Below, in pieces: positions 1 through 13,088 of a stretch of DNA of 54,813 nucleotides (position 1 is its first letter; each line of letters opens with the position of its first letter). The DNA lies in assembly GCA_030156255.1 (NCBI GenBank), contig JASGMV010000026.1, positions 1 through 54,813 on the forward strand, given 5' to 3'. Below the pieces are notes generated by a model. That model ran no database searches. It was not told where the DNA came from and saw nothing but the letters and a program-made list of their open reading frames with translations. This DNA comes from Desulfovibrionales bacterium. Lineage in GTDB: Bacteria > Desulfobacterota > Desulfovibrionia > Desulfovibrionales > Desulfovibrionaceae. Both the position numbers and the translations under genes were made by a program.

Positions 1-582
1 CTCGTTTTTCTTTTCCTCCTTCATCCGAGTCCCGCAGGGGCAGGTGGGCAGGCCTGCCGCGATCCATTTGGCTGTGGTGCGCACGGTGTAGCCGCATTTG
101 GGGCACACTATTTTGCGCATCCGCGTGGGTTGTTTTTGTCCAGGCGTTTTTAATTCGCCGGGGCAATGGTTTGGAAACGCTCCCAATTCCTTAACTATCC
201 GCCCCAGTTTGGCCCGTAGCTCTGGCCCGAGGCGAGTGTCACGCATTGGCCCCTTCAACCCGACGCGCGTGGCGACGATCCGGAACTCTGGGCCATGCCC
301 CGCACCCAAGCCAACAGCCGCGTGCACCAACTCGTGAAGTAGCGTCTCGGCCACCTCCAGCGGGTCCGTAACCTGCGGTGAGATGAAAATTTCCGTGTGC
401 GCGCCTCGCTCCAGACTGGCGCTCCAGCACTCGCCTGTCGTTGTGCGACGAGCGCGATGGCGTCCTGTGGGAAAAGCGCAGGAGACGCACAGCCTGTCCG
501 GAAGCGCAGCGCCGATGCGCTGGAAGTCCGGCCGCAGCCGCGCCACCAGCGCCATCATCCATGCTTCCCGTGTCGTCTCCAT
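1..582 (-). CDS. SprT-like zinc metalloprotein, C-terminus cut by window edge
   Basis: A minus-strand frame stays open from ATG at 582 to the window edge, 194 residues. It has an HELVH zinc-binding motif (H83, E84, H87) followed by HGPEF with a likely third ligand H96, as in SprT-like proteins. A C-terminal zinc ribbon has CPKC (160-163) and CPC (181-183) around the family-typical WIAAGLPTCPCG. SprT-like proteins are related to the DNA-protein-crosslink protease Spartan and are frequent on plasmids, phages and CPR genomes. The exact role here is unknown. The start could also be at the Met codons near 553-558. No in-frame TAG is present in the visible part. Confidence 0.8.
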   Translation of the reverse strand, partial: METTREAWMMALVARLRPDFQRIGAALPDRLCVSCAFPTGRHRARRTTTGECWSASLERGAHTEIFISPQVTDPLEVAETLLHELVHAAVGLGAGHGPEFRIVATRVGLKGPMRDTRLGPELRAKLGRIVKELGAFPNHCPGELKTPGQKQPTRMRKIVCPKCGYTVRTTAKWIAAGLPTCPCGTRMKEEKKNE

Positions 583-960
583 AGATCGACCCCGTGTGTT
601 GGTGTTTTTCGCGCGGCAAGCCGCGCCAGACACCAACATGGTGGACAAAGAGTCCTCCGAGCCTGATCTGTGGATAGCGATTTAAACGGCGTCGACCAAT
701 AAAGGTCGTGTAAATGACCTCACTTGAGAAATGACTAGATGAAATGCAAATGGTGAGTTGAACTCAAATACAAAGTATTGTGGTTGTGCAGATTTTATTT
801 TCACAATTCGTCAATGTATATTCTCTTTATTACAGTTGACACAAGATGAAAACGAGGTGGTTTGCATTGACTTTTCATTTCGTTCTGCTAGCATGCGGTA
901 CGAGGAGAGGTCTCTCCTCCGCAAGAGCAAACCAACACACATTTTCATACCGGCTGGTGA
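583..960. other. Non-coding stretch between divergent genes
   Basis: No convincing gene is seen between the SprT-like gene and the leader of the next gene. It turns AT-rich from about 700 to 860. A near-perfect inverted repeat, GAGGAGAG-GT-CTCTCCTC, lies at 902-919. With only two bases between the arms it is more likely a protein-binding site than an RNA hairpin. Confidence 0.4.
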
Positions 961-1066
961 ACACGCCGCCGGAGCAGATAGATGGCGCACACCATCCTGC
1001 TCCGGTGTTCGGAGCGGGTGACCAAATTTCACCCCGGCTCCGAGGGGAAGCGGAGCCAAAGGAGGA
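961..1066 (+). promoter_or_regulatory. Structured 5' leader with alternative hairpins
   Basis: Immediately before the ribosome binding site of the next gene, complementary GC-rich segments can pair in competing ways. CCGGAGCAG (969-977) pairs with CTGCTCCGG (997-1005). GCTCCG (999-1004) pairs instead with CGGAGC (1010-1015). GGGTGA (1016-1021) pairs with TCACCC (1029-1034). GGCTCCG (1036-1042) pairs with CGGAGCC (1051-1057), ending right at the AAAGGAGGAG ribosome site. Mutually exclusive hairpins next to a Shine-Dalgarno suggest cis-regulation of translation. No known riboswitch class is recognised. Confidence 0.4.
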
Positions 1067-1071
1067 GCATC

Positions 1072-1791
1072 ATGGGATACGCAGCAGTCCGGAGCTATCA
1101 AAGCCCGCAAGCATTGAAGAGGAAGAGGGTTCTTCAATTTGGCGTTTCGGCCATTCTGGCCGCCGTCGCCTTGCTGGTTTTCTGGGGCGTGGACTGGCAG
1201 TGGGGCAAGACCTCCGAAGCCGCGCCGCATCTGGAAGAGCGGACGGCGCCGGAGATGGCGCAAGCCGGTCATGCCGCCGGCCAAAGTGACGGTCTGAAGA
1301 TTTCGGCCAATCTCGGCCCGATCGGTGTCTCCGGTTCGCCGGAGGAAATGAAGCAGCTAGCCAACGCGGCGGCAAATGTCGTGGGGCAGGCGATCAACGA
1401 GTTTCAAACTGGCCGTGCGGAGGAGCTGGCCAACTGGAAGAAGCGCGAGGCGCGGATGGCTCCGCACAAGGCCGCCATCCGGCAGCTGGCGCAGGAGGCC
1501 ATGACCGCGTGGCGAGGTGGACTGACGGGCTGGCGGGAGTGGGCGAGTGGAAAGTCGCTGGAGGTGCAGTTGAAAGCGATGGTGGCAATGCGATTTGAAT
1601 TGAGAAAAAAGAGAGCTGCCTGGACTCCCGAGATGCAGCGAGAGTTTGAGAATGTCTACTTAGCCCTCGACTCAAAAGTCGGCATAGGTGCTGATCTTGC
1701 AGCTTTAGATGCAGCTGAACTGTACGGAGTTAGCAAATGGACAGAGTTTATTGATGTCCGCCGGATCAAGAGAGTTCTTGCTTCACGCTAA
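1072..1791 (+). CDS. Hypothetical single-pass membrane protein
   Basis: This 239-residue protein is not recognised. The chosen ATG at 1072 has a strong AGGAGGAG ribosome site eight bases upstream; the longer frame from 982 would run through the structured leader. A short basic N-terminus (QALKRKR) precedes a hydrophobic segment at about residues 21-40, then a hydrophilic, mostly helical domain rich in Lys, Arg, Glu and Ala. An N-in anchor with an external domain is likely. It ends with TAA and is followed by a good terminator, so it is a single transcription unit ahead of the VirB6-like gene. A role in the cell envelope or secretion apparatus is only a guess from position. Confidence 0.6.
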   Translation: MGYAAVRSYQSPQALKRKRVLQFGVSAILAAVALLVFWGVDWQWGKTSEAAPHLEERTAPEMAQAGHAAGQSDGLKISANLGPIGVSGSPEEMKQLANAAANVVGQAINEFQTGRAEELANWKKREARMAPHKAAIRQLAQEAMTAWRGGLTGWREWASGKSLEVQLKAMVAMRFELRKKRAAWTPEMQREFENVYLALDSKVGIGADLAALDAAELYGVSKWTEFIDVRRIKRVLASR

Positions 1792-1811
1792 ACAATTTTT
1801 CCAGCCGAACG

Positions 1812-1849
1812 ACGGGGAGATAGCATGCGCTTTCTCCCCGTTTTATTTT
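1812..1849 (+). terminator. Rho-independent terminator
   Basis: Stem ACGGGGAGA (1812-1820) pairs perfectly with TCTCCCCGT (1833-1841) and is followed by TTTATTTT. It lies 20 bases after the TAA of the membrane protein gene. Confidence 0.85.
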
Positions 1850-1899
1850 GCAAAAAAATATTGCATCTGCTAAAATAAACTGATCCGCAAAGTCATATC

Positions 1900-4530
1900 A
1901 TGCCACAAACCAAAACCAAAAGATTCGGTCTTGCGATCCTGCTCTCCATCGGCATCGGGGGAGCAGTGTTTTCGTGGGCCATGCCGAGTGTAGACGCAGC
2001 AAATTTGATCTAGATATTCCGTGAAGGAACAGGCGCACGATCCCCCTACACCATCTGCCAAGACACCATCGGAAAGGAGTCAATCTACTCGGGCGACTGC
2101 ATCGCCGCCGCCTGCCAGCCTTTTCACCCGACGCAATATAAGGAAAAGGGTGACGCTTGGTACAAGGAAAACGGCGCGTGGTACTGTCCGAACTGGCACG
2201 GGGACAAGGGCGTCGACACCCTGAAAAACGACAACTCGCCGATCCTCTCCCTGCTGAACAAGCCGTTGGGTTGGCTGGCGCAGGGGCTGGCGTGGGTCAT
2301 CGACCTGCTCATGGACATCGTCTATTATTTCATCGAGTTCGCCTTCAATATCCCCTCCAGCCTCGAATGGGCGTGGGGCAAATTCTGTTCCTTCGCCAAC
2401 ATCATCTTGGCCGCCGCCATCGTCGTCTTGGCGGTGATGACCACGCTGCGCATCAAGCAGGACAGCTACAGCGTCAAGAAAATGCTGCCCAGCATTCTCA
2501 TCTCGCTGGTGATGGTCAACCTCAGCTGGGTCATCGGCCTGTTCGTGATGGATCTCGGGTAGATCGCCTTCAAGGCGGTCGAGGGCATTCCCGGGACGCT
2601 GCCGGGCAGCGAGGTTTCGGGGTTGGCCATCAAGAGCCTCGTGGACGTGGAGGCCTTCCAGAACATCAATACGATCACGGACACGCCGCCGGACATCACG
2701 GTGATCTCGCAGGGCAGCATGTTCCTCTGGCTGCTCACCTCCATCGTGCTCCTGCTGGTGATCATCGAACCCATCTGCAAGATGATCGTGGCCTTCATCA
2801 TCCGCACCGTGGTGCTGTGGGTGCTGCTGGTGGTCTCGCCGCTGGCCTGGATCGGCTTCGCCATCCCCGAAGCCCGCAACTCCACGTGGACCAAATACTG
2901 GACGCAGCTGGGCACGATGGCGCTCATGCCGGCGCACGTGGCGATCTACTTCGTGATCGGGATCGTGCTGCGATAGTCTTTGGTCGGGTCGGTCGAGCTC
3001 AGCTTGGGCAGTTCGTCCGCGCTGGAGTCCGTCAACGCGTAGTTCGTCTCCGGTCTGGACGCCGACACGCTGATCCAGCGGATTCTGCTGACCATCGCCG
3101 TCGCGGTTTTGATGCGCACGGCCGCGAAGGAAGGCCTCAAGAGCGATTTCACCGAGGCGGCCATGGAGTGGGGGGCGAAGGCCGGAAAGCTGCTGCGCCG
3201 CGGCGCTACGGCCGCGATGCTGACTCCGCTGACTCTCGGCGGCAAAGGCATCGGCGCCGGCGCCGGTTATCTGGATCGGAAGACCGGCGGGAATTTCAAA
3301 AGAGTCAAAGACGACTGGAAAACCAAAATGCCCAAAATGCTTGGCGGAGAGAGCGAGTTCGAGAGAGACCGCAAAGCAACCGCTGATCGGCTAAAGAGTG
3401 GATTGATCGACCAAAAGGAGCACGATGCAGATATGAAGATGATTGATAATGCTGAAAGGGCGCACGAGGAGGCGCGGGGCAAGAGCCTCTCCGGACGAGC
3501 CGGCAAATTTATGAAGGCCGCCAATCCGATGGCCGAGTTCGGCCGCAACTTCGCCACGGACGGCTCCATAGTGGCCGGCGCCCAAAAGGTTTGGGAATCG
3601 TGGAACGGTAACATGAATGATATGAAGGAAGCAGACGCCCTCAAATGGGGCAAGGTGTTTGCCAATATTGGACACGCTAGCCCACTAACCGTCGGCGCAC
3701 TGAAAGCCAGCGGTTTCGACGTGAAGGGCATCAAGGCGTCCATCCAACTCAAGCTGGACAACGAAATCTTCAAGGGCGTCAAAGAGAACAAGGGCGTCTT
3801 CTATGACACGGCCACGCGCCAGCAGATCGTGGCGCGCATCAAGGATCTGGAGGGCGACGCGGCCAACGGCGACCGCGGCGCGCAGATCGAGATGAGCCAC
3901 GCCCTGCAAACTCTGGAGCAGAAGCACATCACCTTCTTCCGCGCCGAGGAGAAGGAGGCGCGCGATCTCATGGAAATTTACGAAAAGATCATCAAGAACC
4001 ACGAGGAGGGCAAGACCAACTTGGTGACCGAAGACTTCGCGCGCAGCACCGGCGACCGTCTGGGCACCATGGGCGCCAAGAATCCGGTCTTCTCCGGCGC
4101 CATCATCCGCGACGGCGTGGGCAAGGGATTTCTGGAGGACGCGAGCGGCAACCGCATCTGGCTGCACGAGCACCCGGACCGGAAAACATCCGTCAATCTC
4201 AAGAAGGTCGACCTCAATTATCTCAAGGGCTCCAATGGGCCGTCCATGCTCAAGGCCATCGCCGAGGGCAAGGTCGATACGCAACACCAGCTCAGCGACA
4301 GCATTCTGCGCGCCATTCTGGATGAAGAGCAGCGCAGTGTGCACCAGATTTCCGATGATCTGGTCGAGGCGCTGCAAAAGATGAAGGGCGTCGACCGGTT
4401 CCGGGGGCAGATCGAGGGTGTGGAGCAAAAAGTCGCCAAAGAGAAGGCGGCTAAAGAAGCGAAAACCTCCGACGGCGGCGATTCCGGCTCCTCCGGTCTG
4501 GTGGACGCGCATGGCCGGCCGATTTCATAA
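1900..4530 (+). CDS. VirB6-like T4SS membrane protein with four in-frame TAG codons
   Basis: One frame runs from ATG 1900 to TAA 4528-4530, 876 codons, interrupted only by TAG at 2011, 2560, 2974 and 3040 (codons 38, 221, 359, 381). Coding quality is unbroken across each TAG. Codons 1-37 resemble a signal peptide ending near VDAAN. Clusters of hydrophobic helices lie at about codons 125-220 and 265-375, with MLPSILISLVMVNLSWVIG style typical of polytopic VirB6/TrbL-like proteins in CPR bacteria. From about codon 400 a long, charged, helical cytoplasmic domain follows. VirB6-like proteins form the inner-membrane channel platform of type IV secretion or pilus systems; family assignment is by style, not by a diagnostic motif. 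Read with the standard code it is broken into pieces; read with TAG=Gln it is intact. Confidence 0.7.
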
Positions 4531-4557
4531 TCTTTGTTTCGACGATTTATCCACATC

Positions 4558-4872
4558 ATGACCCTCCTTTCCTCCATCATCCGCCACCGCCCCGAGCAGA
4601 TCACGGCCGACGACCTGGCCGAGGCCGCGCCGGACGATCTGCTGGCGGCCATCGCGGGCGTCGACGAGGTGCTGCGCAGCCCCACGCTCGCCGGGGACAT
4701 GACCGTGGGCGATGCGCGGCGCATGGTGAACGCCATGGGCGAACTCGCCGAATTGCTGGAGTTGGCGCAGCACATGGCCGAAAGCAGCGAACCGCCGGAG
4801 GTGCGGGAGCAGGAGTGGCGAGCCGCCGCGCAGCGGGCGGCGGAGGCGATCAAAAAGTATCAGTCGTCTTGA
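4558..4872 (+). CDS. Hypothetical small helical protein
   Basis: The 104-residue product (from ATG 4558; the frame also allows 4534) is rich in Ala, Glu and Leu and appears entirely alpha-helical and soluble. No family is recognised. It starts 28 bases after the VirB6-like stop on the same strand and is probably co-transcribed, so it may be an accessory of that system. It ends with TGA, which shows that TGA is still a stop in this segment. Confidence 0.5.
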   Translation: MTLLSSIIRHRPEQITADDLAEAAPDDLLAAIAGVDEVLRSPTLAGDMTVGDARRMVNAMGELAELLELAQHMAESSEPPEVREQEWRAAAQRAAEAIKKYQSS

Positions 4873-4879
4873 CCCGTTG

Positions 4880-4888
4880 TGCTATAAT
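4880..4888 (+). promoter_or_regulatory. Extended -10 promoter element
   Basis: TGCTATAAT at 4880-4888 matches an extended -10 element (TGnTATAAT). No good -35 lies 17 bases upstream. The start codon of the next gene is at 4909, so the leader would be very short. Confidence 0.4.
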
Positions 4889-4908
4889 GGCCGCAAATTC
4901 ACCAGTCC

Positions 4909-5460
4909 ATGCCCTTCATCGCCAATCAACTCGCCATCCCGCACCAACTGGAAACGATCCTTTCCGGCGACAAGTTTCTGGTCGGGATGACCTACTTGGC
5001 CGCGCTGGGATACGCGCTGCTTGTTTTGACGCTGCTGGAGGGCGGCGTGGTCTGGCTGCTGCGGCGTTTCGCCGGCCGCACTGCGGCCAAGGCCGAGCAG
5101 TCGGGATTCAAGTATTGGCGCTCGATGAACCGGCGCTACGAGCGGCTGGCCGCCGGAGGCCGCGACGCCGCGTTGGGGCGGCTGGGGCGCTGGGCGTTCT
5201 TGCTGGTCTTGACCGCCGTCCTGACCTACGGGGTCTTTGGCGTGTACATGGCCTGCATCTTGCCGGGGCTCTATCTGCTGCTGTTCGGCTGGACCATGTA
5301 CGTCGGGGCGGGGCATGCCGGGATGGCGCGAACCGTGGCGGCCTTCTTGGGCTTTCTCTCTATGTTATGCTTGGCTCCTTTGGGTTTCAATGGCTGGATG
5401 GCTGTTGCGGTTCTGACCCTGCTCTTCGTCATCTTCACGAGGGAGGAGAGAGGGGCTTGA
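4909..5460 (+). CDS. Hypothetical polytopic membrane protein
   Basis: The 183-residue protein has hydrophobic segments at about residues 24-50, 93-118, 119-137 and 145-178, separated by a basic loop (residues 52-88, RRFAGRTAAK onward). This suggests four or more membrane helices. No family is recognised. It ends with TGA. Its last 96 bases overlap, tail to tail, the end of the recombinase on the other strand, an unusual convergent overlap. It may belong with the VirB6-like gene upstream. Confidence 0.55.
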   Translation: MPFIANQLAIPHQLETILSGDKFLVGMTYLAALGYALLVLTLLEGGVVWLLRRFAGRTAAKAEQSGFKYWRSMNRRYERLAAGGRDAALGRLGRWAFLLVLTAVLTYGVFGVYMACILPGLYLLLFGWTMYVGAGHAGMARTVAAFLGFLSMLCLAPLGFNGWMAVAVLTLLFVIFTREERGA

Positions 5461-7104
5461 GGCTTGCGGGAGGAGGTCGAGAACGGGGAGGGTGGCGCCG
5501 GAGTCTTCGCGCAGGAAGGTTCGAACTTCGTCCAATAGGGAGCTCCAGCTGACATTTTCCGTCCCGCAAGCCCCCTTGCGCCTTGTCCCAGAGCCTGTTT
5601 CGACGGGTTCGAGCGGGGTGTTTTTACCCAGATTGGGTTTTTTCAAGTTCATGAAGCCTTGGAAGCAGGAATGCAGCTCCACATGCAGCTTGCGGTCTTT
5701 CAGGCGGAGGTTCGAGCCGAGGCAGGAGAGGATACACCGCCGGGTCTCGATGTCACCCTTACGGAAGGCGGCGCCTGCCGCGTTGGCGAAATCGAACAGC
5801 CCCTTCGCCTTACTCCGCAGCTCATCTCCGGCTTGATTTGCCCGTTCAAGAGCCAAATGGAGGCGGCGGCGCTCCTGCTCGTACTCCGCTTGGCTTATTT
5901 GGTACGTCTGGTCTGTAATGACGCCAGACACCAGCTTGTCCGTCAGAGTGGCGAGCTTGGCGTCCAGTTGGTTGAGCTGTTTCTGGAGTTGCGCCTGCTC
6001 TCGAATTTTTGCTTGGTCATCTTTTATCTGAGACCTTTCCAGCTCTTCCAACGCCCACTCCACAAAGTCCTACGGAACTTGGATCGCGCCGAGCAGTTCC
6101 TCCACCTGCCGCTCCAATTCAGACTACCGTAGGAAGGGCTGGCTGCATCGAACCGCCGTCTTCTTTTTGGTGCAGCGTAGGTATTTGTAAACGTGGCGGT
6201 TGCCGTTTTTTTGCACTTTCACTTTGGGCGGCTCGGTGGTGATCATGCAGCCGCACTCGCCACAGCGGAGCAAACCGTTCCATGGGTGCTGATACCGATG
6301 CTGACGGGACTTGTCGCCGGAGATGATCCGGCCGGCGTGTTCGAATTCGGCCTACGTGACCATCGGCTCGTGCAGGCCTTGATAGCGTTGGCCGCCCCAA
6401 TGGAAGAATCCGGCGTAAAAAGGATTACGAAAAATCTTGTGCATCGTGCTGACCGAAATCCGAGCGCCAAGGCGGGTGCGCAATCCCAGTTCGTCGTTGG
6501 CAATGCGCGCCAAGCTGGTCACGGAATACTATCCCGTCAACAGGAAATCCCAGAGCCGACGGAGCTTGTCCCAACTCTTCTTGTCGCGGTAGATGCGTTT
6601 TGTCCCCTTGAGCCCGTGGGGATCGTTCAAGTATCCCAGCGGCGCCCAACCCGGCATCCAGCCCTGCTCCAGTTTGCGAGCCATGCCGCGCTTCACGTCG
6701 TGGCTCAGGTCGATGGAATACTGCGTGGCGCTGCCGAACTCCACGCCCATGAGGATTTGGCTTTCGCCCTCCTTGAATTGTCTGTCCGAGCCAAAGATGT
6801 GTTTGATCTTGCCGCGCATGAAGGCGTACTTGATGATGCCCTCGTCGATGGGATTGCGCGCCAGGCGGTTCACCTTCCAGCAGAGAATGCCCACCGGCTC
6901 GGGACTGGCCTCGATGGCTTCCACCATGGCGTTGAAGGCTTCGCGGCCGGGTTTGGTTCCGGTCTTGGTGTCCGTGAAGGTGTCGATGATCTCCAGTCCA
7001 TGCTCGTCGCGCATCCTTTCCGCCCACTCCAGTTGGTTGGGGATGGACTGAATCTGCTTGGACTTGTCTTCGGAAGAGCGACGGGCGTAGATGAAGTAGC
7101 GCAT
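5365..7104 (-). CDS. Large serine recombinase with four in-frame TAG codons
   Basis: The frame from ATG 7104-7102 to TAA 5367-5365 is 579 codons. The N-terminal resolvase domain begins MRYFIYARRSS with the likely nucleophile S10, followed by the recombinase and zinc-ribbon domains (CGECGCM, then RCTKKK...RCSQPF) and a coiled coil rich in Gln and Glu. TAG occurs at 6529, 6352, 6124 and 6070 (codons 192, 251, 327, 345) in the contexts LLTG*YSV, MVT*AEFE, FLR*SELE and QVP*DFVEW. Relatives usually carry Gln or Glu (or another polar residue) at such places. No other stop interrupts the frame. The C-terminal part (SWSSLLDEVRTFL) resembles CPR recombinases. Such enzymes catalyse site-specific integration, excision or inversion through a phosphoserine intermediate. 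The upstream frame to 7164 is open, but 7104 gives the canonical N-terminus. Confidence 0.85.
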
Positions 7105-7138
7105 GAGCCGGGAAGGAAGTCTGGCGGCGCCTTTCAGT

Positions 7139-7372
7139 TTACCGGACGGCCTCCCCGGCGCCAAGTTTTTCGGGATTTTTTGGGCTGGTTTTTAGCTCGG
7201 CGTGCATGATCGTGTGGCACAACGCCAAAAAATCCGCCGCCTCAACCTCCGCCTCCTCGGGGGTGAGCTGCAGACCGGTGTAGGCGCGGATCAACTCGGC
7301 GTACTTGCTCACCCCCGCTGGCGATGGTCGCGGCGCGTGATGACGCGACACCGCAGTGGCCTCACTTCTCAT
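7139..7372 (-). CDS. Hypothetical small protein upstream of the recombinase
   Basis: A 77-residue product with the motif LTPEEAEVEAADFLALC in a helical core. No family is recognised. Its ATG overlaps the end of the preceding gene (ATGAGAAGTGA arrangement), which suggests translational coupling. It ends with TAA 35 bases before the recombinase start. A small accessory or regulator of the recombinase is possible, but that rests only on position. Confidence 0.45.
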   Translation of the reverse strand: MRSEATAVSRHHAPRPSPAGVSKYAELIRAYTGLQLTPEEAEVEAADFLALCHTIMHAELKTSPKNPEKLGAGEAVR

Positions 7373-7652
7373 CCGCCAGAATGACGTCGTACACGTGATT
7401 GCGAGCCAGCTTGCGCGCCAAATTCGCGGCGCTCCTCTCGGACAGGAACTCGGGCACGGACTTGCGCTTCTCGCGCATCAAATCCGCAAACTCCGCCGGA
7501 TGAACCGCGATCCAGCCGTCCACCGCCTTATTTCGCCTCGCGTTCTCGGCGCGAGTCCGCGCCAAGTCTTGCTCACGAAGCAATCGCGCCCGCCGCTCGC
7601 GGCGAAGGATGCGGCGGATCATAGCCTTCTCGGTCGGGGTGAGTTGGGGCAT
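7362..7652 (-). CDS. Hypothetical basic helical protein
   Basis: From ATG 7652 (MPQLTPTEKAMI) the product is 96 residues, very rich in Arg, Ala and Lys, and predicted helical. An upstream in-frame ATG at 7739 would add a tail that lies in the AT-rich junction and looks non-coding. It is the first gene of a three-gene minus-strand run ending with the recombinase. The basic character would fit DNA binding, but no motif proves it. It ends with TGA. Confidence 0.45.
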   Translation of the reverse strand: MPQLTPTEKAMIRRILRRERRARLLREQDLARTRAENARRNKAVDGWIAVHPAEFADLMREKRKSVPEFLSERSAANLARKLARNHVYDVILADEK

Positions 7653-7739
7653 GGGATATGGTGAATGACGGCCCCATGATGGCGGGATGGACTTAGGGTT
7701 TATTCCGGGAAGAAAAGAAAAAATATAATGGGTTATCAA

Positions 7740-7875
7740 GCTGGAGAACTTTAAGATATTGCAATCAAGTAGCTCAGGTGATAAAAATTTTGTATAAGCT
7801 AAAGCCTAGTCGAGACTCTCATTAAATTACAGCATGTTAAAGCAGCTTTACACCACAAGCGAATAGTTCGAAACT
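7740..7875. other. AT-rich junction between the GC-rich and AT-rich parts of the island
   Basis: Composition drops sharply here. The stretch separates a segment in which TAG behaves as a sense codon from one in which TAG is a stop. A TATAAG-like element near 7793 could serve the methyltransferase gene. No repeat or attachment site is obvious by eye. Confidence 0.4.
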
Positions 7876-8802
7876 ATGCCAACCAAGACGGCTTTGAGTC
7901 CACTTCGATACCCAGGAGGTAAAGGAAGCCTCTTCAAGTTTATTGCTGAAATTATTCTGCGCAATGATCGATTTGGAGGAAGCTATTATGAACCTTTCGC
8001 GGGGGGGGCAGGCTGCGCTCTCCGCTTGCTTGGTCAGGGTGTCGTTGGAGAGATTGTCCTTAACGACGCAGACCCTTCGATTTTTTCTTTCTGGACAGCT
8101 GTAATAAATGAAACAGATCGTTTTATCGAAAAAATTTACGCGACACCTTTAAGCATGAACTCATGGACTACTCAAAGAGAGATATGGACTACCAATTCTG
8201 ACCGGGCATCATTCGATGTTGGCTTTGCAACTTTCTTCCTTAATCGATGCAATCGATCAGGGATCATTAATAAAGCAGGGCCGATCGGCGGGGCCAAACA
8301 ATCTGGCAAATGGAAACTAGACGCTCGTTTTAATCACAAAACTCTAGAAGACAGAATTCGCTTCATTGGATTAAACAAAGAGAGAATAAAAATTTTTAAC
8401 ATCGATGCGTTGGATTTTATGAAAATTCATTTCTCCTCAAGGAAAAACCGCAGCAAGTTTGTTTATTTGGATCCTCCATATTACAGATCCGGCAATAGGC
8501 TTTACTTCAACACCTTTGACGACAAAAAGCATTTCGATCTGGCTCAATATATACAGAAGCAAGTCAAACTAAAATGGCTCGTCACCTATGACGATAATAA
8601 TTTTATAAGAGGTTTATATTCAAAACTTCGATCTTACCATTACTCTCTCTCTTACAGCTTACAAAAAAAGAAAAAGGCAAAAGAGCTTATCGTTGTTCCA
8701 GACAACATGGATATGCCACGTGAGTTTATCTTTAACTCTAAAAAGGTGACCTCGGGTCTCACTGCCACTAGGAATAGTGAATATGACCCATCACGATACT
8801 AG
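7876..8802 (+). CDS. D12-class N6-adenine DNA methyltransferase (Dam-like)
   Basis: The 308-residue protein carries the order of motifs of D12-class alpha N6-adenine methyltransferases: RYPGGKG (11-17), the S-adenosylmethionine-binding EPFAGGAG (39-46), the FLNRCNRSG segment (121-129) and the catalytic DPPY (199-202). It transfers a methyl group to adenine in a short DNA site; the site cannot be inferred. No restriction endonuclease is adjacent. It heads a tight AT-rich gene group, so methylation may mark self DNA for the downstream genes. It ends with TAG, so this part of the island uses TAG as a stop, unlike 1-7.7 kb. Confidence 0.9.
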   Translation: MPTKTALSPLRYPGGKGSLFKFIAEIILRNDRFGGSYYEPFAGGAGCALRLLGQGVVGEIVLNDADPSIFSFWTAVINETDRFIEKIYATPLSMNSWTTQREIWTTNSDRASFDVGFATFFLNRCNRSGIINKAGPIGGAKQSGKWKLDARFNHKTLEDRIRFIGLNKERIKIFNIDALDFMKIHFSSRKNRSKFVYLDPPYYRSGNRLYFNTFDDKKHFDLAQYIQKQVKLKWLVTYDDNNFIRGLYSKLRSYHYSLSYSLQKKKKAKELIVVPDNMDMPREFIFNSKKVTSGLTATRNSEYDPSRY

Positions 8803-8812
8803 AGGGCGAGCT

Positions 8813-9442
8813 ATGTACCAATGCAGCGACTGTAGGTTTTGCGCAATCGCAAATGGAAACTACAAGTACTTATCCGTTGACAGGCCTGTATACTCAAACA
8901 GCAGGTTTTATGCTATTGCCTCAATTGGGGCATTGCTGGAAGGTTGGTCATTAGTCGTTCCTAAGTACCACTTCCTTTCCATGAAATCATGCTATCAGGA
9001 TCGCCTGTTCATAGATGCAGTTAATGTGATGCTTTCGAGACTAAGTCAGCAATTTGGCAAACCGGTGATAGCATTTGAGCACGGTGCCAATCACAATGAA
9101 TCTTCTACAGCCTGTGGAACTGCCCACGCTCACTTACACCTTGTTCCTTTCCATGGATCTCTTGAGCAGAGAATAAAGGACAACAGAGATTGGACAGAAT
9201 GTTCATTTAATGAAATTTTTAAAGAAGCAGGTAGCTATGAGTATCTATACTACAACGACATTTCAAAATGTAACGAATGGACAAAGCAGAAAGGGCTACT
9301 GCATATATTAAAAAGTCCAACTTCACAATTTTTTCGAAAAATATTGGCAGAGGCATGTGGGAAAATTGATTTTGCTGACTACAAAATATACCCTTTTCTC
9401 GATGTTGCATCGAAAACGAGAAAAGCACTCTTGTCATCATAA
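8813..9442 (+). CDS. HIT-family nucleotide hydrolase or transferase
   Basis: From ATG 8813 the protein is 209 residues. It has the HIT signature H105-A-H107-L-H109 within CGTAHAHLHLVPF, preceded by GALLEGWSLVVPKYHF, the usual strand and turn of HIT proteins. An N-terminal CSDCRFC group (C4, C7, C10) resembles the CxFC start of many HIT proteins. HIT enzymes act on the alpha-phosphate of nucleotides, such as AMP-lysine, Ap4A or nucleotide sugars. The frame can be extended to GTG 8777, overlapping the methyltransferase. The roughly 80-residue C-terminal extension is not recognised. Confidence 0.75.
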   Translation: MYQCSDCRFCAIANGNYKYLSVDRPVYSNSRFYAIASIGALLEGWSLVVPKYHFLSMKSCYQDRLFIDAVNVMLSRLSQQFGKPVIAFEHGANHNESSTACGTAHAHLHLVPFHGSLEQRIKDNRDWTECSFNEIFKEAGSYEYLYYNDISKCNEWTKQKGLLHILKSPTSQFFRKILAEACGKIDFADYKIYPFLDVASKTRKALLSS

Positions 9443-9463
9443 TGATATCCACGGGGTCTACAT

Positions 9464-10048
9464 GTGACTAGCGAACGGCAGAGCACCAACGCCCAAGATG
9501 TATTCAGCGAAACGAATGCCGACGATGCAGCATGCTGCCCTCCAGACATTCACACCGATGGCAGAGAGAAGGGTGACTGGAAAAGCAGATATCCTGATGA
9601 AGCAAGAGTCCAGATACGATGGGAGCTTGTCTATATCTTTGCTTTGCTTAGCATATCACTGTCAGTTATATTCCTCAACTGGATCGGCATATTGACAGCC
9701 CATCTCTCTCTAGCGGGAGCAAGTAAGAAAACATTTACCACTTTCATCTACTACATGGCCGGAGGCTTACTAGGGGGCACTACTTTTGGTGGAAAGTATC
9801 TTTACCGAGTTGTTGGGCGGGGCTTTTGGTCACAGGACAGACGAATTTGGCGTATCCTTTCCCCCTTTGTCGCTATGGTTATTGGGCTTGTGATCGGCGC
9901 AATGATCGAATGTGGCCTTTCCGCTCCTAATGGCTACTCGTCCGGGACAAGGAGCTTTGTTATTGGCTTCCTTGCAGGCTACTTTGCAGACAAAGCAGTA
10001 GGTTATCTTTGTGACATTGCAGACGTAATTTTTGGTAAAAGAAACTAG
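9464..10048 (+). CDS. Four-helix membrane protein of unknown function
   Basis: The 194-residue frame starts with GTG at 9464; the overlapping ATG at 9462 is immediately followed by TGA. The first 50 residues are polar and Cys/Asp-rich. Hydrophobic segments follow at about 54-78, 89-112, 128-148 and 163-182. No family is recognised. It ends with TAG seven bases before the next gene. A membrane effector alongside a nucleotide-processing sensor is a common layout in bacterial defence modules, but nothing in this protein alone shows that role. Confidence 0.6.
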   Translation: MTSERQSTNAQDVFSETNADDAACCPPDIHTDGREKGDWKSRYPDEARVQIRWELVYIFALLSISLSVIFLNWIGILTAHLSLAGASKKTFTTFIYYMAGGLLGGTTFGGKYLYRVVGRGFWSQDRRIWRILSPFVAMVIGLVIGAMIECGLSAPNGYSSGTRSFVIGFLAGYFADKAVGYLCDIADVIFGKRN

Positions 10049-10054
10049 CAAACA

Positions 10055-12691
10055 ATGCCCAAACCCTCGCCACTTAAGCCAACAAAAAACATCGTATTTA
10101 TTACGTCTAATTCTTGCACAAGAATTTCTCCAAGTAAAATTCGTAAAAGTAAGATCGGAGCAAAAGCCTTTGGCTTAGCCTGTCTACCTCCGCACTGGAC
10201 ACTACCATTCCTCGTTATATCTGATAGTCTTTTTCAGCAGTACAAAGAAGCTTTCTCTAACAAAGGCCTTGACATTGTAACAACATGGTCAAAAAAGCTT
10301 TTCTACGCAGCGGTTGAGCATGGCATCGCCCCAAACGATAAAATTATAATTCGTTCATCCGCATGTGATGAGGACCTGCCTACTAAGGGAGAGTATTATT
10401 CAAACACTGGGACACTGAGTGAAATCGCAACCCCTCTCTCTCAATGCTTGGATAAGCTCCTAACTGACAACGCCCTACCAACGAATAAAATTCCACTAAT
10501 TCTTCAAAAGCATCCAAACATCGTTTCCGCCAAAGGGCATCTTTCAAACGAGCGACGTTTTGCTAAAGAAATGCGAGACTGGGCTATTGAATTCGAGAAA
10601 CCAAAGGATTTAGCTGGGCATAACGAAAGAATCAGCCTGAGAAGTTGGCGCAGAAACAAATCCAAAGAAGTTAACCCTGAGATCATATTAGCTTGTAAAA
10701 ATTTTTTTAATTTACCAAAGATATTGGAAGATGCAGCAGCCTGGGCTCTCTCCAAGCAATCAAGAATTCATTTTGAGTGGATATGGGACGGGGATTGCGT
10801 ATATTTGGTTCAAGCTGACGAGGCATTAGAGGTTGACGGCATCCATCCTAGAACACTAAAAGTTAAGGCGCAACAAGCTCTTCCAGAGTATACGCCACGG
10901 TGTCTCTCTGTTGTTAATCCTACAGAGAAATTTAGCTACAACAAAATATTTAATGTTTATCAGTACAATAAGCTTGGACTACCAACAACCAGATTTTACA
11001 TTCTACAAGACAGAAAAGCCATCTTAGATTTAACTATCGGAAATGTTTCTTGTGACTTGGCATATGATATTTCTGTATTGTCTGGGCTGTCACTGGTGAT
11101 TCGCATGGACGTTACTAGTCAGGACAAACGTATTAGACAGCTCTTGCCTCGCACAAATGAAGTTAGAAACTTAGCGTCTGCATTGAGTTGGTTTGCAGAG
11201 CAAAAGAATGAGATACATAAGCTTGTCGAACACGGATTAGCACTTATCTTTCACAACTTCATCCCAGCCGCAGCTTCTGCTTTTGCCTATGCCGTCCCCA
11301 ATGCTAGAAAAGTACAAATCGAAGCACTTTGGGGGCTACCTGAAGGACTTTACTATTTTAGCCACGATAAATACATAGTTGACACAAGAAGCAACCACCT
11401 AAGCAATTTGACAACCAATGATTATTCAAAATTTTTTATTGAAAAAAAGATAAACTTTAAAAATCTTTTTGTCACGCCTGATGATGAAGGCAAGTGGGTA
11501 ACGAAAAACCTCCATTCATCCTTTGGCTGGGGAGGAACTATAACCGATAAGTCAACTTTAGCAAGCATCGCACATGCAACACGAATGATTGCTGAAGAGG
11601 CTCAGGAGCCATTAAGTGTTATGTGGCTTGTTGGAGTTGATCAGTCAATAAGTAAAAATGGCATACTTCCATGGTATCACGAACCAGCAGACATCAACCA
11701 AAGACAGCCTCGCACATCTTACAAGCCTAAGACTTTATTCGATAAAGGGATAGAAATAAAAAATGTTGCAGATCTTGAACGCCTTGAGATTGAAGTGCAA
11801 AACAAAACAACTATGCTGAGGTACATCAGTATCCAGCCTAGAGAAGATCGCCTATTGAGAGACAAGCTTGTTCTGAAACGCATAGGCGAATGCGCCAAAA
11901 AAATTGATGCAGTTATTTACCTCGAAGGAGGAATTCTATCGCATGCATACTATCAGCTTGTAAAAACTGACGCACATGTCCAGGTGGCCCTGCCATTCGG
12001 AGCAACTGACAACAGAATAAATTTTGACAAGCTTGTTAGAGACTACATTCCATCCAAAATAGAAGAAGGTGGTGAGCAAGTTAAAAAGGCAAAATTCTCT
12101 GGAGAATATCTTTTAAGATTACTAAAAGACAAGTTAGTTGAAGAATGTTTTGAGGTTTTAGATGCAAACAACCATGAATCAATTATTGAAGAGCTCGCAG
12201 ATGTAAACGAGGTGATTGACACCATACTGAAAACTATAAACTCTAATCGCCATGAGCTTGCTGAGTACCAAGAGAATAAGGCACAAAAAGCAGGTGGGTT
12301 TAGTGAGGGGTACGTTCTATTAGAGACAACGAATCCACTACCAACATCTAAACAGAAAGATTCTAGCGGCATGCTCCCCACCTCAACCATCTCTAATACT
12401 TCAATAATTAAGGATGCCAACATTTACGATATCCTGGAAAAAGGGCGCAAGGTAAAAAAGTGGCACGACAGAAGGCTACATTCCCCAGAAACTGAAGATC
12501 TATTTTCTCTTGAGGTTCCTGTTGTTAAAGATTTCTGGGAAGAAGAAACGCCTGAGACTTTTTTCGCTATTTTCAAAGGTTATGCAGTCCGTGCAAAGGT
12601 AATGGGCCGAAGGCAAGGAGCAAAACTAAAAATTAGGTTTTCGGTGTATACCATACCTAAGCAGCTAAGTCTTCTTGACCTTCTAAGCTGA
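10055..12691 (+). CDS. PEP-synthase-like ATP-grasp / MazG-like pyrophosphohydrolase fusion
   Basis: The 878-residue protein begins with a domain like the nucleotide-binding half of PEP synthase and pyruvate phosphate dikinase: GAKAFGLACLPPHWTLPFLV (35-54), IIRSSACDEDLPTKGE (98-113) and FEWIWDGDCVYLVQAD (240-255). Around 655-760 lies a MazG/all-alpha NTP pyrophosphohydrolase-like domain: KLVRDYIP, then EECFE (696-700) and EELAD (712-716), matching the EExxE...ExxD metal site. The middle (260-650) and the C-terminus are not recognised. No swivelling phosphohistidine domain is apparent, so a complete PEP synthase is unlikely. It may phosphorylate a small substrate and hydrolyse a nucleotide, or sense a nucleotide. 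It is the last gene of the cassette and ends with TGA. Confidence 0.7.
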   Translation: MPKPSPLKPTKNIVFITSNSCTRISPSKIRKSKIGAKAFGLACLPPHWTLPFLVISDSLFQQYKEAFSNKGLDIVTTWSKKLFYAAVEHGIAPNDKIIIRSSACDEDLPTKGEYYSNTGTLSEIATPLSQCLDKLLTDNALPTNKIPLILQKHPNIVSAKGHLSNERRFAKEMRDWAIEFEKPKDLAGHNERISLRSWRRNKSKEVNPEIILACKNFFNLPKILEDAAAWALSKQSRIHFEWIWDGDCVYLVQADEALEVDGIHPRTLKVKAQQALPEYTPRCLSVVNPTEKFSYNKIFNVYQYNKLGLPTTRFYILQDRKAILDLTIGNVSCDLAYDISVLSGLSLVIRMDVTSQDKRIRQLLPRTNEVRNLASALSWFAEQKNEIHKLVEHGLALIFHNFIPAAASAFAYAVPNARKVQIEALWGLPEGLYYFSHDKYIVDTRSNHLSNLTTNDYSKFFIEKKINFKNLFVTPDDEGKWVTKNLHSSFGWGGTITDKSTLASIAHATRMIAEEAQEPLSVMWLVGVDQSISKNGILPWYHEPADINQRQPRTSYKPKTLFDKGIEIKNVADLERLEIEVQNKTTMLRYISIQPREDRLLRDKLVLKRIGECAKKIDAVIYLEGGILSHAYYQLVKTDAHVQVALPFGATDNRINFDKLVRDYIPSKIEEGGEQVKKAKFSGEYLLRLLKDKLVEECFEVLDANNHESIIEELADVNEVIDTILKTINSNRHELAEYQENKAQKAGGFSEGYVLLETTNPLPTSKQKDSSGMLPTSTISNTSIIKDANIYDILEKGRKVKKWHDRRLHSPETEDLFSLEVPVVKDFWEEETPETFFAIFKGYAVRAKVMGRRQGAKLKIRFSVYTIPKQLSLLDLLS

Positions 12692-12754
12692 CACTGAAGT
12701 AGCCTCCATTTCGAGCGGACATTGCGGAAGCAATTAGGAGGTCGGTCTATCCCT

Positions 12755-12895
12755 GTGACCAGGCCTAGTGCTAATGATGTTTCTACGGTTGCGGTGGTCA
12801 CGGAAATCCAGCGACGACGCTGGACCATCGACGAGAAGCTGCGCCTCGCTCAGTTCAATATACCAAAGCAAGGCTATCCGTCTTTGTGGAGATAA
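12755..12895 (+). pseudogene. Remnant of an IS66-type TnpA (orfA)
   Basis: A 46-codon frame from GTG 12755 contains RRRWTIDEKLRLAQ, resembling the RRRWSxEEKLRIV start of IS66 TnpA proteins, then loses similarity and stops at TAA. It is a 5' fragment without the rest of the element. It marks earlier insertion-sequence activity close to the island border. Confidence 0.5.
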
Positions 12896-13043
12896 TGTAG
12901 GGGGTGATGTCTGAACGTGTACACTCGGCCCTCTACACTTTCATGCAATCTCCTGCCGCCTCCTGCATCCTCATGCGGAATGACGACAAGCTCTTCGAAA
13001 AGAGCAAATAAATCGGCGGGGTTATTCGCTTCGGTTTCCTGTC

Positions 13044-13088
13044 CTGTCACGCCGGAGGCCGTGGGTTCGAGTCCCATCGGCTCCGCCA
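13044..13088 (+). repeat. 3' half of tRNA-Asp(GTC), probable attachment site
   Basis: The segment starts with the anticodon loop CTGTCAC (13044-13050, anticodon GTC), then the 3' anticodon stem GCCGG, a variable loop, the T arm GTGGG-TTCGAGT-CCCAT, acceptor strand CGGCTCC, G and CCA. It closely resembles tRNA-Asp genes. The 5' half is missing: no GGAGCCG acceptor strand or CCGGC stem strand lies upstream. This is the usual remnant left at one end of an element integrated into a tRNA anticodon loop. The restored tRNA should lie beyond the left edge. Confidence 0.8.

Follow-up and report, generated by a model that had tools for sequence, protein, structure and literature searches.

We show that the left end of a 54,813-base contig from a Desulfovibrionales bacterium holds two long genes interrupted by TAG codons and by no other stop, and that a divergent second copy of the same genes elsewhere in the assembly repeats the pattern. 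The window, by which we mean the whole stretch of DNA analysed, is the complete contig C27 of assembly G000 (3.84 Mb, 106 contigs, 99% complete). Its first 7.7 kb are unlike the remainder and comprise the frames of a VirB6-like membrane protein and a large serine recombinase, plus five TAG-free genes; the window genes from about 20 kb onward we take to resemble those of a Desulfovibrio relative, and the gene content of G000 is presumably deltaproteobacterial. In our judgement this segment is probably a mobile-element block that evolved under a code in which UAG means glutamine (Gln); its present host uses the standard code, under which TAG likely silences it. The segment would then belong to an integrated mobile element that carries genes of the type IV secretion (conjugation) kind and encodes its own large serine recombinase. 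This element would have evolved where UAG meant Gln alongside CAG and CAA, and two divergent members of it would now reside in a single genome with the standard code. The features of the segment are given below in window positions; C69 is the contig of G000 with the second copy, C82 another contig of G000, and G170:C114 a contig of another genome.

1-582, minus strand: SprT-like gene (PF10263, 33.4 bits, cut-off 25.6); no internal TAG.
982-1791, plus strand: protein of unknown function; TAA end, no internal TAG, no Pfam family; partly common to C69.
1900-4530, plus strand: VirB6-like membrane protein; 876 codons, four in-frame TAG, TAA end.
2011-2013, plus strand: in-frame TAG, VirB6-like codon 38; opposite residue Pro or Ala, depending on the alignment.
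2560-2562, plus strand: in-frame TAG, VirB6-like codon 221; C69 also TAG, G170:C114 Gln.
2974-2976, plus strand: in-frame TAG, VirB6-like codon 359; C69 has AGC (Ser).
3040-3042, plus strand: in-frame TAG, VirB6-like codon 381; C69 has CAA (Gln).
4534-4872, plus strand: small conserved protein; TGA end, no TAG; DNA 83% identical to C69 (302 columns).
4909-5460, plus strand: small protein, hydrophobic by eye; TGA end, no TAG; overlaps the 3' end of the recombinase gene.
5365-7104, minus strand: large serine recombinase; 579 codons, four in-frame TAG, TAA end; resolvase, recombinase and zinc-ribbon domains.
6529-6531, minus strand: in-frame TAG, recombinase codon 192; C69 has GAG (Glu).
6352-6354, minus strand: in-frame TAG, recombinase codon 251; C69 has TTG (Leu).
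6124-6126, minus strand: in-frame TAG, recombinase codon 327; C69 has CAA (Gln).
6070-6072, minus strand: in-frame TAG, recombinase codon 345; C69 has CGG (Arg).
7362-7739, minus strand: small protein; TGA end, no TAG.
7468-7690, no strand: last stretch common to C69; 94% DNA identity, similarity ending at 7690.

The two interrupted frames are as an earlier note on this DNA, made from the sequence alone, had described them. The only internal stops are TAG at 2011, 2560, 2974 and 3040 in the VirB6-like frame (1900-4530, plus strand) and TAG at 6529, 6352, 6124 and 6070 in the recombinase frame (7104-5365, minus strand, where the first coding base of each TAG is the high coordinate, 6531, 6354, 6126 and 6072); neither frame has an internal TAA or TGA, and both can be read end to end without a frameshift. 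The label VirB6-like combines the name used in that note with inspection by eye, and searches of the frame against Pfam, NCBIfam and PHROG gave no match. The recombinase, with TAG translated as Gln, matches PF00239, PF07508 and PF13408 in order, each over its cut-off (resolvase at residues 4-148, recombinase at 191-262, zinc-ribbon at 277-337), and its residues 1-476 match the PHROG 95 integrase. The note had also counted seven complete genes ending in TAA or TGA. With the two interrupted frames read through TAG, six complete models lie in 982-7739 (three TAA, three TGA); the seventh, the SprT-like gene, crosses the window start and is incomplete there, and its TGA end was read in C82 by translation across the 79-base overlap between C82 and C27.

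The second copy of the block, with the same gene order, lies on C69 (34 kb). The proteins of the two copies are 32% identical for the VirB6-like protein and 60-61% for the recombinase, and DNA identity is 78% in the first 1.26 kb and reaches 94% in the final common 223 bases. In homology searches that read through every stop type, the VirB6-like and recombinase genes of C69 had one TAG each and no TAA or TGA, which brings the four homologous genes of the window and C69 to 10 TAG, 0 TAA and 0 TGA. Under ordinary mutation, TAG is expected to make up 44-51% of new stops, as calculated from the codon content of all nine genes with TAG in the window and C69. On that expectation, eight TAGs of eight in the window genes has P 0.0015-0.005, with the qualification that these eight sites were chosen for being TAG; the two C69 sites were not, and ten of ten in the four homologous genes has P 0.0003-0.0013.

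The remaining five TAG-bearing genes are all on C69 and hold six TAGs: a 530-codon gene has two, and four cargo genes, one of which matches an N6-methylase, have one each. Left out of all counts were the TAGs at C69:15711 and C69:19822, which precede the probable start codons of the genes concerned, and two TAGs in an open reading frame (ORF) antisense to a pilin-like gene on C82. Between the TAG-bearing cargo genes, at C69 (locus L013) 10500-12538, a hairpin-like motif of 23 bases (TGGCGGGATTTNNCCCTCCCGCC) occurs four times; it has no match in the window at up to 3 mismatches and no exact match elsewhere in 201 loci.

Selection on the recombinase continues beyond all four TAGs. Between window and C69, nonsynonymous and synonymous divergence (dN and dS) were 0.25 and 0.81 before the first TAG, and 0.26 and 1.72 after the last (codons 346-480). 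Scans of codon usage, which we regard as weaker evidence than the stop statistics, agree in that neither detected a TAA or TGA inside a gene on its coding strand, whether in the window block or in C69:1-13 kb; the TAA and TGA hits of the host-trained scan in those blocks were gene ends when on the coding strand and antisense otherwise. The other scan, whose training set drew partly on element genes, picked up 8 of the 16 TAGs present in the two copies.

When the two shared genes are aligned, their ten TAGs occupy nine columns, one with TAG in both members and eight with a single TAG. Opposite these eight single TAGs stand Gln three times, and Ala or Pro (depending on the alignment), Ser, Glu, Leu and Arg once each; the Gln cases are C69 CAA facing window 3040 and 6124, and window CAG facing C69 TAG 7864. 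Pairwise log-odds, which used the substitution frequencies of those same alignments, give Gln 8.1 bits, Arg 0.3, Ser -3.5, Pro -3.7, Glu -3.7 and Lys -3.8, with all others below -3. The best single site is VirB6-like codon 221: both members have TAG there, and Gln stands at this position in G170:C114 (with TAG masked in the alignment), a weak VirB6-like relative from another genome (E 1.8e-4 over 74 columns; the C69 protein against that single protein gives E 4e-4). In distant homologues, the five recombinase TAG sites are polar positions. Overall, Gln is the best-supported meaning of TAG. The proposal of the earlier note that the segment comes from a context reading TAG as Gln is therefore supported by the TAG-only interruptions in two divergent copies, the Gln evidence and the constraint. 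Its view that the code is mixed also holds: of the Gln-type codons, TAG makes up about 9% in the window block (8 TAG, 44 CAG, 38 CAA) and about 6% in C69:1-13 kb (8 TAG, 66 CAG, 63 CAA).

The host, in contrast, stops at TAG. On C27, C69 and C82, 13 of the 53 gene models that lie outside the TAG-bearing blocks terminate with TAG, as do 67 of 266 genes in a 400 kb sample of the surrounding genome, and release factor 1 (RF1) is present in G000 (541 bits). Within the window, C69:1-13 kb and C82 blocks, 7 of 30 standard-code models end in TAG, all of them pieces of interrupted frames; this count takes in no small genes, and models with TAG as sense cannot reveal TAG ends. In the present host, then, the VirB6-like protein would end with residue 37 and the recombinase with residue 191, past the resolvase domain and no further than the start of the recombinase and zinc-ribbon domains. 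From this truncation, both genes would be off in the host, and both would be turned on by a suppressor tRNA, whether supplied by a phage, a helper element, some other replicon or a recoded donor cell.

We looked for such a decoder throughout G000. The tRNA search of the window gave no tRNA, in line with the absence of a CTA anticodon noted by eye, and a tRNA search across the whole assembly found no CTA anticodon. That search, run to E 10, returned 50 matches, 41 of them with an ARAGORN gene, and none of the 41 has a CTA anticodon. Eight weak matches, read by eye, are fragment-like, with no CTA where an anticodon is readable; for the ninth (window 13018-13085, 15 bits) ARAGORN finds nothing. 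No tRNA with anticodon CTA was found on the element contigs. Candidates raised by a TCTA pattern were rejected as a tRNA-Arg (TCT), a fragment of the same tRNA, and a hit on C106 where ARAGORN calls no tRNA. The anticodon stems of the two host tRNA-Gln are ordinary. The eight tRNA-like fragments (C8:56798-56863, C14:12611-12683, C19:967-1028, C49:2823-2871, C82:57-102, C99:10401-10478, C100:15977-16054 and C103:2047-2105) suggest several tRNA-targeting islands in G000. Separately, ARAGORN calls a selenocysteine tRNA (TCA) on contig C7 (locus L183), and because of this call G000 may insert selenocysteine at some TGA codons.

Several features place the second copy in a larger island. C27 and C69 both begin with the same 79 bases with which C82 ends, and because of these common bases C82 extends at least one copy upstream. 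C82 contributes a NikA-like mobilization protein (27.9 bits, cut-off 27), an adjoining relaxase-like gene (labelled by eye; no Pfam match) and the pilin-like gene, which matches T4SS_pilin PF18895 weakly (22.6 bits, cut-off 26.6). C69 contributes a coupling protein (T4SS-DNA_transf, 95 bits) at 13-21 kb and a tyrosine integrase (PF00589, 77.9 bits) adjoining an intact tRNA-Asp, a 57-base piece of which is repeated at the far end of C82. Because of this repeat, C82 would pair with C69 instead of C27, and C82 and C69:1-21 kb look like a single island of about 52 kb. A search of the G000 genome for the VirB4 ATPase (PF19044) gave no match. A single gene of 2,944 residues at C82:286-9120, with glycosyl hydrolase 94 and glucoamylase-type domains, is probable island cargo. 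The coupling protein and the NikA-like gene both sit in TAG-free blocks. TAG accounts for none of 157 Gln-type codons in C82:24-31 kb plus C69:13-21 kb, versus 16 of 227 in the recoded blocks (Fisher P 0.0003), and because TAG is absent from those stretches the recoding would concern a block within the larger island and not all of it; we read this pattern as mosaic origin in first place and as a regulated gene set in second.

On the window side, similarity to C69 ends at position 7690, which probably marks the edge of the element or a recombination junction. The recoded block is separated from the high-GC chromosome by a stretch of 41-45% GC (7876-13000) that encodes a D12-class DNA methyltransferase, whose gene has a TAG terminator, a weak HIT-like protein and an 878-residue protein. 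No phage structural or replication genes were found near the TAG genes; among the genes tested, the clear phage-family match is the recombinase only.

Searches for relatives returned little. Outside G000, the best full-length recombinase relatives are about 29-34% identical, and one is 41% identical over 318 residues. Matches of any kind to the recombinase occur in 43 of 297 phylum genomes, G000 included, and in 24 of 288 family genomes, again including G000, besides which none is above 30% identity; for the VirB6-like protein, 2 of 395 phylum genomes match, G000 included. No useful relative was found for the recombinase in a genome-contig collection or, as a single protein or as part of a pair, in a viral-contig collection, for the VirB6-like pair in the same two collections, or for the VirB6-like protein in plasmids and phages. 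The DNA of positions 1-7800 had no match in plasmids and, in phages, a 96-base match in the SprT region only, and an exact 35-base piece had none in viral contigs. Among the other recombinase matches, in-frame stops were seen as one TAG in G107, one TGA in G018 and one TAG in G551.

The proposal of a UAG=Gln origin has to be weighed against a number of our own results, beginning with the TAG-free stretches described above. Five of the eight single-TAG columns have no Gln opposite. Although the pairwise alignments favour Gln, distant recombinases do not single it out, and at the five sites they rank Lys (6.0 bits) and Glu (5.2) before Gln (4.6) and Arg (3.0; 97 loci aligned of 99). The nine TAG-bearing genes together hold 16 TAG, 0 TAA and 0 TGA, and counting 15 of the 16 TAGs gives P 5e-6 to 5e-5, figures in which five genes were called with TAG as sense, so that the absence of TAA and TGA from these extra C69 genes is by construction. 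Four of the 16 TAGs are in C69 cargo genes whose frame rests on codon usage only, and homologues of the methylase start immediately downstream of the C69:10383 TAG. Conservation is poor over the final 82 codons of the recombinase (dN 0.61, dS 0.71), and the VirB6-like divergence is near saturation, which makes dN/dS uninformative there (codons 222-358: dN 0.77, dS 0.61). The host-only scan, with 178 long ORFs as its training set, picked up 7 of the 16 TAGs (40 codons) over a noisy background of 134 hits in 400 kb of host DNA (TAG 60, TGA 47, TAA 27). Finally, no decoding tRNA was found in G000.

Foremost among the alternatives, and still unlikely, is that TAG acts as a switch, with transfer and excision genes translated only when a code 15 phage or another helper supplies a suppressor tRNA. 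The VirB6-like and recombinase genes do carry TAG, while the NikA-like, pilin-like, coupling-protein and tyrosine-integrase genes and the relaxase-like neighbour (by eye) do not, the host otherwise stops at TAG, and recoded phages, whose late genes are thought to be controlled in this way, offer a precedent (PMC10746230). Yet C69 cargo genes carry TAG too, the TAG-free genes lie in separate blocks, so that mosaic origin accounts for them equally well, and no helper was seen. The switch overlaps with the explanation we prefer and is not exclusive of it. We give somewhat less credence to decay, in which the element is dead in its host and the TAGs are ordinary nonsense mutations that are TAG by chance. 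Termination at TAG in the host and the lack of a suppressor in the assembly would fit, and without a VirB4 match in the genome (PF19044) the element may be dead. Nevertheless, ten TAGs of ten in the four homologous genes would be improbable, the frames run from end to end without a frameshift, the pattern recurs in two members with 40-68% protein divergence, the outgroup has Gln at a TAG site common to both, and constraint persists beyond the TAGs. Ranked after decay, and also improbable, is an assembly or binning artefact joining the DNA of a recoded organism to G000: the assembly is in 106 contigs, of which the window is one, and contamination is known to cause false recoding calls (PMC8629427, in the parts available). 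However, C27 and C69 both pass from the block into DNA with TAG-ending genes, C82 and C69 are island-like, with the tRNA-Asp repeat at the bounds and the tyrosine integrase adjoining, and the TAG-bearing genes would need an explanation even under a misjoin.

There are two further readings. That each TAG is a standard-code stop, passed by leaky readthrough or followed by re-initiation, seems very improbable to us. The available text of PMC7918605 describes in-frame stops as widespread among bacterial genes, and 6 of the 16 TAGs have a ribosome-binding-like motif at one of the first four in-frame starts downstream; at the other 10 sites no such start is listed. Readthrough would be required up to four times per protein, the base after TAG is variable (T 7, A 4, G 4, C 1), both host tRNA-Gln have ordinary anticodon stems, and TGA, which the same text calls leaky in E. 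coli, is absent. Least probable of all is that UAG encodes pyrrolysine in G000 or a related host. Deltaproteobacteria that use pyrrolysine with in-frame TAG have been published (PMC8318568, as far as its accessible text goes), but PylS matches in G000 are sub-threshold only (29.8 and 20.1 bits against a curated cut-off of 178), weak PylS-type matches also occur in 13 of 14 control genomes, one of them over the cut-off, no CTA tRNA was found, and the TAG sites vary between members and swap with Gln codons.

If, as we favour, the block evolved under UAG=Gln, its donor might tentatively be sought in a cellular bacterium with genome-wide UAG=Gln, perhaps a Patescibacteria-like epibiont, as the secretion-type (pilin-like and VirB6-like) genes would suggest; we hold this part of the proposal to be possible and somewhat doubtful. 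Such a donor would have the first bacterial code of this kind known to us, and the element would be locked in a standard-code neighbour by the code difference. More generally, conjugation-type genes with UAG=Gln would imply a bacterial or plasmid gene pool that decodes UAG as Gln outside phages, in the past or at present, or, alternatively, that helper suppressor tRNAs control bacterial mobile elements. Under standard-code annotation, such genes would look broken.

UAG=Gln is established in phages (PMC10746230, in the parts seen). The bacterial stop reassignments known until a 2021 screen were all UGA, as stated in the available sections of PMC8629427, and a 2026 survey of 42,109 genomes concerns UGA and sense codons as far as its available text extends (PMC13092985). 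We found no description of UAG=Gln in conjugation-type elements among the papers listed by searches of the open-licence literature. Compared with known systems, G000 resembles the pyrrolysine-using Deltaproteobacteria in its in-frame TAG and differs from them in having no PylS above cut-off, no CTA tRNA found and Gln opposite TAG. A point of contact with the type IV secretion systems of Patescibacteria (the Candidate Phyla Radiation, CPR) may be the pilin-like gene of the element, with its weak, sub-threshold match to PF18895, a profile used for that phylum in the accessible part of PMC12102498; unlike those systems, G000 has no VirB4 match (PF19044), and the VirB6 link is weak (E 1.8e-4, 74 columns). 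The window recombinase has its resolvase, recombinase and zinc-ribbon domains in the order seen in large serine recombinases such as the PHROG 95 integrase, XisF and CcrA/B, from which its four in-frame TAGs set it apart. Unlike the code 15 phages (crAss-like, Lak and others), the element has chromosome-integrated conjugation-type genes, and no suppressor tRNA was found with it; like them, it appears to mix TAG for Gln with CAG and CAA (TAG being 6-9% of Gln-type codons, a figure for the element alone), has TAA or TGA at the ends of its complete window frames, and resides in a host that stops at TAG.

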